The translations under genes and the position numbers were made by a program. Under the pieces are notes generated by a model that was not told where the DNA came from, searched no databases, and saw nothing but the letters and a program-made list of their open reading frames with translations. Positions 1 through 56,479 of a DNA stretch of 64,000 bases are shown piece by piece (position 1 is the first letter of the stretch; each line of letters opens with the position of its first letter). Origin of the DNA: Gemmiger formicilis (GTDB lineage Bacteria > Bacillota > Clostridia > Oscillospirales > Ruminococcaceae). The stretch covers positions 62,001 through 126,000 of the forward strand of contig NZ_JACJJP010000001.1 in assembly GCF_016900095.1 (NCBI RefSeq). The letters are read 5' to 3'.

Positions 1-681
1 AAACCCTTTTTCCGGCTGCTGTGCCGGGCAGCACTTCCATTCCAGCGCCGCTGCATATTCCCGCACCAGCAAAAGCCCGGTGCCGCCCCGGGCCAAAAAG
101 GGTTCTTCCGCTTTGCCCTGGGTCAGCAGCGCAAGGGCGGCCGCATCGGCGCCGGAACCGTTGTCCCGGTACAACAGCCGACGGTCCGCCGTGCAGGTCA
201 GCTCCACCCTGTCTGCTCCCGCCCGTGCCGAATTGGAAAGCAGGTTGGCCAGAAGGCTGTTGATCAGATTGTCATCCGCTTCCAGCCACAATCCGCCCTG
301 GGTCCTGTCGCGAAAGATTACCTGCAGCGGATGGTCGCAGGCTGCCAGTTCCTCCGACGCGCAGGCGCACAGAGCGCGCAAATGCCCGGTCAGTTCCATG
401 GGCAGCGGCGCGCGCAGTCTGCGCAGCTGGGCGCCCAATGCCAGATCCGCCGCGTTATCCGCCAGGCGTTCCAGACGCCGGATCCGGCGATTCATCTCCC
501 GCAAAGAATCCAGCCCCGTACTGCGCACCGGTTCCGGCGCCTGCTGGTCCAGATACCGTGTCAGGGCGTCCACTGCCCCCTGCAAAACACAAAAATCCTC
601 CGCCAGCCGGCCTTTCAGACCGCCGCGAAGGGAATCCATTTTTTCCGGCCAGACCCGGTCGGTCAGATTGTCTGTGTTCAT
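1..681 (-). CDS. Histidine-kinase-like ATPase domain protein, C-terminus cut by window edge
   Basis: The 227 visible codons begin with a helical segment (residues 10-75) followed by a GHKL ATPase domain. The N box is NLLANLLSNSA, the G1 box DNGSG and the G2 box GGTGLLLV, so it should bind ATP. The helical part lacks an H-box: where SHELRTPL would be expected the sequence reads GGLKGRL, with no histidine until about residue 100. It may be a degenerate kinase, a Spo0B-like phosphotransferase or a partner ATPase. No membrane segment or signal peptide is visible, so it is probably cytoplasmic. The ATG follows a GAGGAGA ribosome site. It lies 41 bases downstream of the Spo0A-like regulator on the same strand, so the two are probably co-transcribed. 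No stop codon is seen before base 1. Confidence 0.8.
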   Translation of the reverse strand, partial: MNTDNLTDRVWPEKMDSLRGGLKGRLAEDFCVLQGAVDALTRYLDQQAPEPVRSTGLDSLREMNRRIRRLERLADNAADLALGAQLRRLRAPLPMELTGHLRALCACASEELAACDHPLQVIFRDRTQGGLWLEADDNLINSLLANLLSNSARAGADRVELTCTADRRLLYRDNGSGADAAALALLTQGKAEEPFLARGGTGLLLVREYAAALEWKCCPAQQPEKGF

Positions 682-722
682 CGCAAGAGTCTCCTCTTTA
701 TCCGGACGGGCAGGCAGTTGGC

Positions 723-1487
723 TCAGCGCCCCATGGCACGACGAATCAATTCGGTCAGGCTGCGGATCAGTTCCAGATTGCTCAACCGGCTCCCCGCGGG
801 CTTGTTCACCGCCCGGCACAGGCGGTCATAGCCTTCCGGTCCGGTACGGCGCAGGGATTCATTGATGCGCTGCAATGCAGAACAGACGGTTCCCGGCTGA
901 ATGTGCTGGCCATCCGCCGCATACTGGTACAACTCTTTGGCAATATAATCGTCCGATTCCAGAACGGTGCGAAGCAGGATCCGTTCCAGATAGTTCCAGC
1001 CGCCCAGCCGCCGGTTATAATGCATCTCACAAAGCATATCGTGCAGATATTCCCGCACACGGTACGAATTCCAGGCGCTGTCGCTGCCGCCGCAGCGATA
1101 TACCGCCGCAAACAGCTCCGCCATTGTATATGGCTTAAAGATAATACAATCGGCCCCCATTGTCAAGAAACGGGATGCCGTTTTCTGGGTACAGGGCATA
1201 GCGGTGACCAGAATGCATGGGCGGGATGCAAGATCCAGCCGACCGATCTGCCAAAGCAGCTCTCCCAGGCCGGGACCTTGCAGCAGTGTATCCAGCACCA
1301 GGACCTGCGGACTGAGCCCCTTTTCCAGTATTTCCAATACCTGCAGTCCCGATGTGACGGCCGCACACACTTCCACCGATTGCTGCGCAGCGCCGTACAG
1401 TTTGATCGCACTGCACTGCCCACGGTCACTGTCCGCAAACAGCGCGCTGACCCATTCCTGCTTGTCCCCATTGCGCATCTTCTTCAT
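723..1487 (-). CDS. Spo0A-like response regulator paralogue with divergent DNA-binding domain
   Basis: This 254-residue protein has a receiver domain (about 15-135) with the acidic pocket FADSD, phospho-acceptor Asp in VLVLDTLL, the Thr of LVTAM and Lys of IFKPY. The C-terminal half follows the helix pattern of Spo0A_C: LGGWNYLERILLRTVLESDD matches the helix carrying KGYQFLRDAILLAVEDHEY in the true Spo0A at 55662-56420. The helix that in Spo0A reads SRVERAIRHAIEVAW is GTVCSALQRINESLR here, so conserved DNA-contacting arginines are lost and the target site is probably different. It precedes the ATPase gene at 1-681. The start may be ATG at 1487 or ATG at 1478; the purine run AAAGGG fits 1478 better. 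A role in sporulation or another developmental switch is inference. Confidence 0.8.
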   Translation of the reverse strand: MKKMRNGDKQEWVSALFADSDRGQCSAIKLYGAAQQSVEVCAAVTSGLQVLEILEKGLSPQVLVLDTLLQGPGLGELLWQIGRLDLASRPCILVTAMPCTQKTASRFLTMGADCIIFKPYTMAELFAAVYRCGGSDSAWNSYRVREYLHDMLCEMHYNRRLGGWNYLERILLRTVLESDDYIAKELYQYAADGQHIQPGTVCSALQRINESLRRTGPEGYDRLCRAVNKPAGSRLSNLELIRSLTELIRRAMGR

Positions 1488-1534
1488 CCCTTTGCTTTCG
1501 GCCTTTTCCGGTGCACATCCTTACGCCCGACCGT

Positions 1535-1837
1535 TCATCCGGCACATTCTTCCGCCACGGTACAGATATCGCGGATCACATCGCAGGCGTTTTCCGGCGG
1601 AATTGCATTTTCATACAGAAACCGCAGCAGTCCCCGTCCGAATTCCAGATCCGCCTCGGCCAAAGTACAGTGCACAGCCCGCGTACAGCTCTGTCCGGCT
1701 TCCCGACAGACAACCACCCCCAGCTGCCCTGCCTTGTCATACAGCGCATACCCAATACGGTGAGCCGCCTGCAAGCCTTTGATTTCCGAAAAGTCCCGCG
1801 CATACGATTCCAACAATTCTGTCTGTGCCGGATTCAT
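1535..1837 (-). CDS. Small conserved-type protein of unknown function, possibly DUF6514-like
   Basis: A 100-residue acidic protein with no signal peptide or membrane segment. The pattern RIGYALYDKAG, then a charged central stretch and an ending IPPENACDVIRDIC, recalls the short clostridial DUF6514 family, but I am not certain of the assignment. The ATG at 1837 follows AGAGGAAG closely. It is the first well-supported gene of the operon that continues with the Spo0A-like regulator 47 bases downstream. It could be a partner of that regulator or simply a neighbour. No catalytic motif is visible, so no activity is proposed. Confidence 0.65.
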   Translation of the reverse strand: MNPAQTELLESYARDFSEIKGLQAAHRIGYALYDKAGQLGVVVCREAGQSCTRAVHCTLAEADLEFGRGLLRFLYENAIPPENACDVIRDICTVAEECAG

Positions 1838-2010
1838 CTTCCTCTTGTCTCCCCCACATTAAGATATTCGTCCGGGTGGGTAACGCCTTTTGTTCCGGGT
1901 CCGCAAACGGCGAACACACTCTGCAAAAGATCCTTGCCGTATACCGCAACCGGTTTGGATCTTCTTGATAAATAATCATACCGATTTATCCAAACAAAAT
2001 CAATGGTCAT
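1834..2010 (-). CDS. Possible 58-residue leader gene, low confidence
   Basis: An open frame of 58 codons ends with a 4-base ATGA overlap with the gene at 1535-1837, an arrangement typical of translational coupling. Its C-terminal part, with GPGTKGVTHPDEYL, looks protein-like. Against it: no ribosome site is seen before the ATG at 2010, it uses TTA and AGA codons that are rare in this window, and the best promoter for the operon lies inside it. I recognise no family. It may be a real small gene or chance. Confidence 0.22.
   Translation of the reverse strand: MTIDFVWINRYDYLSRRSKPVAVYGKDLLQSVFAVCGPGTKGVTHPDEYLNVGETRGR
1975..2003 (-). promoter_or_regulatory. Predicted sigma-A promoter of the Spo0A-paralogue operon
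   Basis: On the minus strand TTGATT, a 17-base spacer and TATGAT match the vegetative consensus. Transcription would start near 1968 and leave a leader of about 130 bases before the ATG at 1837. I saw no convincing 0A box (TGTCGAA) in the leader. Apart from this and the tRNA promoter, the AT-rich 1838-2283 interval holds nothing else I can support. Confidence 0.5.
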
Positions 2011-2235
2011 GGGCAAAAACACAATTTACGATTTTATACGTCCTGCGCAAAAATTGCACGACATCTTTCTTTATGACGTTTTATAGACTCTTTTTTGAAC
2101 AATATCGTTTCCATGTTTTCACAGTGCAAAAACGAGGTCATAAGGCAATCTGCTATTAATGATATGCATTATTGTTTTGTGGCATTCCCCTATATCCTGT
2201 TCCTGCACACGCTCCATATTTTTCCCGCACAGCCC

Positions 2236-14433: not shown

Positions 14434-15813
14434 TCAGCTTTCCTCGGCTTCCAGGGGAAGACGGATGACGGTGCGGGCACCATGGGGTTCGTTGTTTCCG
14501 AATTCTACCCGGCCGCCGTGGGCCTGTATGATCTGCACCACAATGTGAAGGCCCAGCACGTGCGGCGCGGGATCCGGCTGCGGATTGCCTTCCAGAACCG
14601 ACAGCACCGCAGGCGGGTAGCCGCTGCCGTTGTCCGTAACGATGACGACCAGTTCCGATGCTTCCCGCCGGGCGTGGACGGCAATTTCGCACCCCGGATT
14701 GTGCCGGGCACTGTTGCCCAGCAGGTTGGAAAAAGCCCGGCCCAGAAGTCCTTCATCCGCGCGCAGAGTCAGTGCTTCCGCATCGGGGGCCAGGTCAAAA
14801 TCCAGAGAACAGGCTTCCCCATAACCGGAATTGCAGAAATCGGTGACCGCCCTGCGCAGCAATTCTCCCGCCCGTACCGTCTTCAGGCGCAGGGGCTGGG
14901 CGTTATATTGCAGCTTGCTGGTCAGGTTCAGGTCTTCAATCAGGCGGCGAATGGTTTGCCCCTGGACCCGGATGGCCCCCGCCTTGGCCTGCTGGGCCGC
15001 CGGCACCGCCGGGTCGTGTTCCAGCTGTTCGGCATACCCGAAAATCAGGGACAACGGCGTGCGGATATCATGGCTGACCCCGGCAATCCAGTCGGTTCGG
15101 GCAGCGTCCCTCCGGGCGATGATGGTATTCTGACGCTGCAGAAGGGCGCTGGTCTGGTTCAGTTTGCGAGCTACCTCGGCGGTAAAGCCGGTAGCAGGCA
15201 GCTGTACCGCCCCGCCGGCTGCCAACGTATCCAGCCCATTGGCCACACTGGTCAACGCCTTGGCGCCTCGCCAGCTGAACACCATACACCCGGCCACAAT
15301 CAAAGCCACAACGGCCAGCAGCGTGGGCACAATGCCCCGATAAATTCCCCGGAACAGTTCGGTGTAGGAGTAAAAGCTGTACCGGAACATGGTACCTGGC
15401 GTTCTGCCCAGCACCAGCAAACCGTTTTCGGTGATCCAGCAGAACACCGGATAGTCATCCAGGTACCAGCGGGTGAAGGAGGCCACGTCGGTGACGGTGT
15501 AGGTGCGGTCCAGTTGGGGCGGCAGGTCGTACCGCCACACCACATTTCCCTGCTCATCCAACAGCATGGCCCACTCATACCCGTACAGCCATTCCTCCTG
15601 GGTGTTTTCCCCATCCAGATGGTACCCATCCTCACCCCGGACCAAGGCCCGGGCAATCTGCTCCGCGCTGTACCGGACGTTTTCCTGGTATTTATCGGCG
15701 TAATAAGCCACAATGCCCCCAAACGCAGCCAGTATGGCAATCATCAACGCCAGCACGCCCGCCGCCACCGCCAGGGCGTAGCGGCGCAGCATCCGGCCGA
15801 AGGTGCGTATCAT
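14434..15813 (-). CDS. Membrane sensor histidine kinase
   Basis: A 459-residue kinase with two membrane segments (about 10-38 and 170-195), a 130-residue extracytoplasmic sensing loop, and a HAMP-like linker. The phospho-acceptor H-box is GVSHDIRTPLSL (about 250). The ATPase domain has N box LLGRAFSNLLGNSARHNPG, G1 DNGSG and G2 HVLGLHIVVQI. It lies 2 bases downstream of its OmpR-type response regulator. The divergent ABC exporter with direct repeats in its promoter suggests it senses a peptide antibiotic or envelope stress, as CprK or BceS do. The ligand is inference. Confidence 0.92.
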   Translation of the reverse strand: MIRTFGRMLRRYALAVAAGVLALMIAILAAFGGIVAYYADKYQENVRYSAEQIARALVRGEDGYHLDGENTQEEWLYGYEWAMLLDEQGNVVWRYDLPPQLDRTYTVTDVASFTRWYLDDYPVFCWITENGLLVLGRTPGTMFRYSFYSYTELFRGIYRGIVPTLLAVVALIVAGCMVFSWRGAKALTSVANGLDTLAAGGAVQLPATGFTAEVARKLNQTSALLQRQNTIIARRDAARTDWIAGVSHDIRTPLSLIFGYAEQLEHDPAVPAAQQAKAGAIRVQGQTIRRLIEDLNLTSKLQYNAQPLRLKTVRAGELLRRAVTDFCNSGYGEACSLDFDLAPDAEALTLRADEGLLGRAFSNLLGNSARHNPGCEIAVHARREASELVVIVTDNGSGYPPAVLSVLEGNPQPDPAPHVLGLHIVVQIIQAHGGRVEFGNNEPHGARTVIRLPLEAEES

Positions 15814-55661: not shown

Positions 55662-56420
55662 TCAAGCGCGACGACGCTTGTCCAGGCGGATTTTGTCCGC
55701 AATCATGGCAATAAATTCCGAGTTGGTGGGCTTGCCCCGCAGGCTGTGGATGGTGTAGCCGAAATACCCGTTGAGGGTATCCACATCGCCCCGGTCCCAG
55801 GCCACCTCGATGGCGTGGCGGATGGCCCGCTCCACCCGGGAAGCGGTGGTGCCGTTGCGCTTGGCGATTTCGGGGTACAGACGCTTGGTCACGGCGTTGA
55901 TGTACTCGTGGTCTTCCACCGCCAGCAAGATGGCATCCCGCAAAAACTGATATCCCTTGATGTGGGCCGGAACCCCCACCTGGTGCAGAATTTCGGTGAC
56001 GGTCAGCTCGTCACTGTCCTGAGAGAAGGCCTGCGGGCGTGCGGGTGTACCCGCCGCCTTGAGCACCCGGCTGACCAGGACCGACTCGTCAAAAGGTTTG
56101 ACAAAAAAGAAGGAAAAGCCGTTGTCCAGCAGTTCCTGTTCGATCTCCTCACTCTGGAAAGCCCCGGTCACAAAAAAGGTGGTGTGGGTGCCGGAGGTAT
56201 CCTGGGCTTCGTACCGCTGCTTGACCGTGATGGCATCCAGGTCCGGCATGAAGGTATCCAGCAGAACCGCCTGGGGATGGGTGTCCAGCAGCGCTTTCAG
56301 GGCTTTGCTGCCGTTTTTCTCGCACACCGTCACCGAAACGCCTTTGTCCTCCAGCGCCTGGCGGCACAGCGCCGTGGTCTGCGCGCCGGTATCGGTCATC
56401 AAAAACTTGATCTTGTCCAT
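55662..56420 (-). CDS. spo0A: Sporulation master regulator Spo0A
   Basis: A 252-residue response regulator. The receiver has MTDTGAQ, the phospho-acceptor Asp in VLLDTFMPDLDAITV, Thr in FVTGAF and Lys in FFVKPFDES. The C-terminal domain is the diagnostic Spo0A_C: ILHQVGVPAHIKGYQFLRDA, VEDHEYINAVTKRLYPEIA and the recognition helix SRVERAIRHAIEVAW. It ends HSLRGKPTNSEFIAMIADK, as in other Spo0A proteins. When phosphorylated it starts endospore formation. ATG 56420 follows GAGGAGT. It lies near spoIVB, the usual neighbour, with one extra gene between. Confidence 0.97.
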   Translation of the reverse strand: MDKIKFLMTDTGAQTTALCRQALEDKGVSVTVCEKNGSKALKALLDTHPQAVLLDTFMPDLDAITVKQRYEAQDTSGTHTTFFVTGAFQSEEIEQELLDNGFSFFFVKPFDESVLVSRVLKAAGTPARPQAFSQDSDELTVTEILHQVGVPAHIKGYQFLRDAILLAVEDHEYINAVTKRLYPEIAKRNGTTASRVERAIRHAIEVAWDRGDVDTLNGYFGYTIHSLRGKPTNSEFIAMIADKIRLDKRRRA

Positions 56421-56479
56421 TGTGATACACTCCTCATTCATCAGCGGCCAGCCGCCCGGCCGCGCAGGTTTCTCTCGAC

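Follow-up and report, generated by a model that had tools for sequence, protein, structure and literature searches.

A three-gene operon of Gemmiger formicilis encodes a response regulator homologous to Spo0A, a kinase-like ATPase in which the phospho-acceptor histidine of histidine kinases is absent, and a small protein putatively of a distant DUF6514 type. We propose, at roughly even confidence, that these genes represent an autoregulated former two-component system in which the pseudokinase controls the regulator non-covalently and without His-Asp phosphotransfer, in the manner of DivL. Because the kinase has lost the histidine that passes on phosphate, the pair probably works otherwise, while the conservation of the former kinase argues that it is not a relic. 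The operon lies at the beginning of the window, by which we mean the whole 64,000-nucleotide stretch of the G. formicilis genome that was analysed.

Gene order and distribution of the operon

All three genes were confirmed on the minus strand, in the order small protein (positions 1535-1837 of the window, 100 amino acids), regulator (723-1487, 254 amino acids, a receiver followed by a Spo0A_C-like output domain) and ATPase (274 amino acids), which begins at position 681 and runs past base 1, its last 144 bases falling outside the window (whole gene L002:9857-10681). Domain matches downstream of the ATPase mark an AA_kinase-family protein (presumably PyrH), ribosome recycling factor, a CTP_transf_1 protein and an M50 peptidase (which we take to be CdsA and RseP, respectively), as well as DXP reductoisomerase. 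The trio recurs across the family, often directly 5' of pyrH.

Within Gemmiger, the regulator is present in all 35 genomes and is adjoined by the kinase-like gene in every one of them, with the small protein in 34 and pyrH within the flank in 27 of 31 loci. The sole Gemmiger locus lacking the small protein (L038) also lacks the upstream repeat described below and keeps the promoter-like stretch CATTGATTTTT. A profile of the small protein matched in 51 of 396 family genomes and, across the order, in 8 of 297 genomes drawn, six of the eight within the family; of those outside it, L160 shows a regulator with a Spo0A_C score of 53.3 bits and no kinase match, and L159 has neither. Among 40 non-Gemmiger stretches, all selected by a small-protein match, profiles recovered the trio in 34, of which 24 contain pyrH. 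The stretches read did not include the small-protein match places in G570, G061, G140, G599, G195 and G046:C180; rows L116, L118, L120 and L127 were omitted as the same places as L007, L009, L011 and L014, and L038 stands outside the small-protein set. More than half of the remaining small-protein match places are Gemmiger-independent stretches. Linkage to the small upstream gene, whose conservation the initial annotation had looked to as support for a system, is thus conserved both in the genus and beyond it. Its description of the arrangement as lineage-specific is too narrow, since the module is found across the family, part of it with ordinary histidine kinases.

Pfam yields no match at E<=10 for the small protein of the window, and its tentative assignment comes from proteins in the same gene position, of which 17 of 33 match DUF6514 (PF20124) at E<=1, the best at 1.6e-9. 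A serine, S17, is nearly invariant (at least 90%) among the small proteins. DUF6514 as such was considered as the key to the system and rejected: none of the order's 30 best DUF6514 loci has a regulator or kinase match in its 1.5-kb flanks, so that only a distant DUF6514 subset belongs to the module. Close relatives of the small protein without regulator and kinase were seen ahead of genes of the phosphoglucomutase type (L144, L146, L150) or of an MTHFR gene (L121), twice in succession (L155) and at a further locus (L147). One assembly (G052; completeness 66%, contamination 4%) contains two diverged pairs of regulator and kinase, L008 and L027, with a pyrH match beside each and the small protein beside the L008 pair only.

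The regulator and the kinase-like ATPase

In the Pfam scan the regulator matches Response_reg at 30.5 bits (cut-off 30.2) and Spo0A_C (PF08769) at 16.9 bits (E=0.0063, profile positions 2-102 of 104), the latter below the curated cut-off of 25, and it matches no other DNA-binding family. Spo0A_C matches at E<=1 were obtained for 29 of the 36 proteins of the regulator set, the true Spo0A being one of them. The Spo0A equivalog TIGR02875 scores 44.3 bits against the regulator, under its curated cut-off of 200, compared with 243.9 for the true Spo0A of the window. Conversely, a profile of Gemmiger C-terminal halves from which Spo0A was excluded recovers the true Spo0A of the genome at E=2.1e-8, and among 545 frames nothing matched besides that protein and the regulator itself. 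The C-terminal profiles used as evidence were all built without true Spo0A, and one profile that contained it was set aside. Homology of the output half therefore places the regulator in the Spo0A superfamily in the wide sense. This claim is drawn from sequence, because the structural match list consists mostly of receivers, hardly probes the output half and has top rows that are near ties, within less than 1-2 Z. Identity between the regulator and the Spo0A of the same genome is about 16-18% over the whole alignment.

The initial annotation had recognized a Spo0A paralogue that keeps the receiver Asp, Thr and Lys and carries an altered recognition helix. Both points stand: the three residues are D66, T95 and K118, and GTVCSALQRINESLR is aligned to the place at which Spo0A has SRVERAIRHAIEVAW. 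Its premise that Spo0A is normally single-copy does not always hold in the order, in which 83 of 247 genomes have at least two Spo0A_C matches at E<=0.001 (six in G299), a count that includes a few genomes, such as G063 and G344, with equal-scoring copies on two contigs that may be assembly duplicates. The true Spo0A of the genome is encoded at 55662-56441 on the minus strand, with a fully typical Spo0A_C domain (154 bits) and a receiver start, LMTDTG, that has D-T in place of two acids.

Among Gemmiger regulators, D66 is kept in 35 of 35 and K118 in 32 of 35. The acidic pair of the receiver reads D19-S20 in the window protein, the second acid being absent; both acids are present in 1 of 35 Gemmiger loci, as against 10 of 13 loci outside the genus whose kinase has the histidine and 4 of 24 whose kinase does not, and the acid at position 19 is itself missing in 13 of the 35. 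The missing second acid alone proves nothing, since D-T stands there in the window's true Spo0A as well. Outside the genus, D66 is lost in 8 of the 24 histidine-less loci and, among the 13 with histidine, in L131, where the kinase histidine is present and the receiver Asp absent. Outside the genus the receiver Thr column cannot be relied on, as a Ser or Thr may fall one place on.

The best Pfam match of the ATPase is HATPase_c, at 27.3 bits against a cut-off of 26.4. HisKA does not match it at E<=10, and the protein is absent from the 22 HisKA matches of the genome, one of which, a histidine kinase, is encoded elsewhere in the window (14908-15102, minus strand; G000:C11:76908-77102). The N, G1 and G2 boxes are all present, as was initially reported, and the sequence GGLKGRL (ATPase residues 20-26, at 598-618 on the minus strand as counted from the ATPase start at 681) indeed occupies the place of the H-box. 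It aligns to SHEFKTPL or THEFKTPI in relatives, with G24, the Gly after the Lys, in the His column and R25 in the Glu column, and no His occurs anywhere in residues 1-89, the DHp part. Neither finding that was initially named as contrary, another DNA-binding family in the regulator or a DHp domain with histidine in the ATPase, was made. Structure prediction gives the ATPase the fold of a DHp-CA histidine kinase; such a predicted fold, lacking the phospho-acceptor, fits the anatomy of a pseudo-histidine kinase of the DivL type.

This altered motif is fixed in the genus. G24 and R25 are found in 35 of 35 Gemmiger kinases, which have no sensor domain and share the motif GG[LV]xGR, and N150, D173, G175 and G202 occur together in 32 of the 35. 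In 29 Gemmiger species (a count that omits L051 and L052, while the 35-locus residue counts include all), LRGGLKGR is the most conserved eight-residue window of the ATPase, at 0.905, followed by the G1 box at 0.793 and compared with a mean of 0.519; no His reaches 95% conservation anywhere in the protein. Over 30 comparisons, of three genes in 10 pairs, dN/dS is 0.06-0.31, which indicates that the genes of the operon are under purifying selection. At its C-terminus (L002:9860-9960, minus strand) the ATPase of the window species bears a Cys/His-rich tail, CRHAACRRC; relatives keep a helix there with an invariant or near-invariant Glu (E266) and do not keep the cysteines.

Outside Gemmiger, orthologues that share the gene order carry the phospho-acceptor histidine in 13 of 37 rows. 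The other 24 have Gly (5), Ala (4), Gln (4) or Glu (3) in its place, and Asn, Lys, Cys, Met, Ser, Tyr, Asp and Arg once each; the genus g9 by itself includes a kinase with His (L131) and three with Gln (L130, L134, L140). Ten kinases were scanned with Pfam. The HisKA cut-off is passed by L014, L133, L139, L142 and L131, all of which have the histidine, and by L009, which has Asn; L137 (His) falls below it, L130 (Gln) narrowly misses it, and two Gemmiger kinases show HATPase_c alone. The L014 and L133 kinases also have PAS domains. Since HisKA matches persist in kinases without the histidine, these are DHp domains whose key residue has been replaced. The tree requires at least 17 changes of the residue, and at least four between His and not-His; as no more than four of the latter are required, the histidine may have been lost independently on few occasions. 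The test of whether the histidine and the receiver residues were lost jointly had three independent pairs (p=1) and is underpowered. Sporulation status was tried as a cause of the loss and rejected, as SpoIVA, found in 43 of the 46 genomes checked, does not distinguish the groups.

The predicted operator and promoter

Upstream of the small gene, the loci have in common a direct repeat in tandem, whose period is exactly 10 bp. Words of five bases repeated at a distance of 10 occur in 15 of 29 Gemmiger upstream regions and 25 of 36 others, as compared with 1-10 at other distances from 7 to 25; for words of six bases the counts are 12 of 29 and 19 of 36, with 4 of 68 in coding stretches. Shuffles that shift two-base blocks gave means of 1.40 (Gemmiger) and 1.84 (others) for six-base words, with maxima of 7 and 7 over 1000, while for five-base words the largest of 1000 equals the Gemmiger count of 15. 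These upstream counts, from which L052 was omitted, are not independent because the regions share descent.

The 0A boxes that Spo0A binds in tandem are arranged head to tail. The half-sites seen here differ by group: GACGA in g9, CGACGG in g58, and in Gemmiger CGTA or CGAA, where the following bases vary and are frequently identical in both halves. In L139 the half-site is GGTCGA, close to the 0A-box core TGTCGAA as given in PMC3485338. The arrangement CGTA-N6-CGTA is present in 17 of 30 Gemmiger upstream regions (shuffle mean 0.26, maximum 3 over 500), rising to 22 when CGAA/CATA variants are allowed; 8 of the 30 have no repeat even with CGAA/CATA half-sites, and L161-L163 have none with CGTA/CGAA. 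The window site, CGTATAAAATCGTA (2027-2040, minus strand), is the single match to CGTANNAAAWCGTA in the 3.26-Mb genome and lies at its own operon. CGTANNAAAWCGTA is present in many Gemmiger, with 23 exact matches in 19 of 35 genomes, 18 of them at the operon; these are remarkable by place and not by number, because reversing the pattern as a control yields 18 matches in the same 35 genomes.

In the window, this predicted operator ends 23 bases upstream of the -35 element of a promoter-like site, TTGATT-17-TATGAT (1975-2003, minus strand; 9/12), which is also supported by the alignment of four close species. In some other Gemmiger, the operator is downstream of the best promoter-like match. An inverted repeat, GATAAAT-N10-ATTTATC, spans the -10 element at about 1956-1980 (minus strand) and is nearly unchanged, being seen in the four close species only. 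The regulator probably controls its own operon through the predicted operator.

A sporulation side branch, with the paralogue as a competitor of Spo0A for phosphate or for DNA, is improbable. The homology of the regulator to Spo0A, the prevalence of SpoIVA in the genomes checked and the nearly 0A-box tandem repeat of the histidine-containing L139 are in its favour. However, the 0A box TGTCGAA does not occur near the operon (two occurrences in the window versus 5.2 expected), the Gemmiger repeat differs and is located at its own operon, and no gene or site connection to spo0A was found. The earlier suggestion of a regulator or phosphate sink for Spo0A finds no tie of this kind, with a predicted site unlike the 0A box and present once in the genome of the window.

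A probable former two-component system and its possible mode of action

In the mechanism that we propose, the three genes would form a self-contained module derived from an ordinary histidine kinase, a Spo0A-family regulator and a DUF6514-type small protein. The Gemmiger kinase would have lost its sensor domain and its histidine, the site now reading G24-R25, and retained the dimerisation hairpin and ATP pocket. The regulator would bind the tandem 10-bp-period operator at its own promoter, and the pseudokinase would make direct, ATP-dependent and non-covalent contact with the receiver in the region of D66, as DivL senses DivK, with the small protein perhaps serving as input in place of the former sensor. 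The pseudokinase would thereby set the amount of regulator free for the operon, with a possible effect on the genes that it precedes (pyrH, frr, cdsA, dxr and rseP). A precedent for non-covalent control by a pseudokinase is the DivL-DivK pair of Caulobacter (PMC4211667). As described in that source, DivL has PAS domains and a single-domain partner, whereas the Gemmiger protein has no sensor, a Gly-Arg at the H-box and a Spo0A-type DNA-binding partner in its operon.

A more specific version, which we consider less likely than not, is that of a two-component system rebuilt as a phosphotransfer-free switch, with GG[LV]xGR as a docking motif on D66. The Arg of the motif, in place of the catalytic acid, would contact the invariant D66, and ATP binding would gate the grip. 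The regulator would act on little besides its own operon, the half-sites having shifted alongside the recognition helix, and the relatives, in which the His place holds H, Q, N, A, K, C, Y, M, E, S, D, R or G, would represent stages and side branches of the change.

The kept D66 and K118 also fit continued phosphorylation, and so stand against our main reading. The chief rival, possible although we think it unlikely, is that a different kinase, or a small phosphodonor, still phosphorylates D66, with the histidine-less protein as a dedicated phosphatase or adaptor. The 22 HisKA matches elsewhere in the genome offer candidate kinases. On the other side is the erosion of the acidic pair, including the 13 loci without an acid at position 19, although true Spo0A lacks the second acid too. 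The phosphatase variant must further contend with the loss of the HisKA phosphatase motif, H-E/D-x-x-T/N, of which G24, R25 and the variable residue 28 now hold the key places. ChrS of Corynebacterium, as reported in PMC9491836, is a catalytically dead kinase that aids another kinase and still influences a regulator, as is supposed here; according to that source its defect is a frameshift in the CA domain from laboratory evolution, whereas the loss of His in Gemmiger is fixed genus-wide.

It is improbable, and slightly more so than a sporulation branch, that the ATPase is a GHKL-type Ser/Thr kinase, of which SpoIIAB and PDK are known types, acting on the small protein or the regulator: the ATP site is intact and S17 of the small proteins could be a target, but the best Pfam match is HATPase_c, with HATPase_c_2 not among the matches at E<=10, the relatives are HisKA kinases, and no direct sign of such activity was seen. 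That the operon is a decaying two-component relic, functionless today, is very unlikely even with His, sensor domain and receiver residues lost, given a regulator in every Gemmiger genome, the low dN/dS values and the invariant motif that now occupies the former H-box.

There are precedents for both pseudo-histidine kinases and second Spo0A homologues. Clostridium thermocellum likewise has a second Spo0A-family protein beside true Spo0A (PMC4890492, PMC4236516); the two are given there as 56% identical, as against about 16-18% here, where a kinase-like gene is linked as well. The sporulation kinases tested in PMC6136694 are orphans. With Spo0A of the B. subtilis type (PDB 1dz3, 1qmp, 5wq0) the regulator shares a receiver, a Spo0A_C-type output domain and tandem binding sites, the last predicted here, and differs from it in the changed helix and predicted site core, the Spo0A scores below cut-off and the linked kinase-like partner. 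One open library, outside which most subscription papers fall, returned no paper on DUF6514 or on Gemmiger with sporulation and Spo0A, and no title describing the operon among the matches listed; nor did we find in it the combination in one operon, the fixed Gly-Arg, the range of relatives or the diverging tandem repeat.

Pseudokinases derived from histidine kinases have seldom been studied, and a question that they raise is how a signalling pair persists once its chemistry has been lost. As the operon spans the range from a normal kinase to a fixed pseudokinase, along with a regulator and a predicted DNA site, the change should be testable by comparison of its members. Caution is warranted in annotation, as some proteins match HisKA or Response_reg though the phosphorylated residue is gone (for example, the L009 kinase). 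The operon also illustrates Spo0A-type regulators assuming other roles in gut bacteria.
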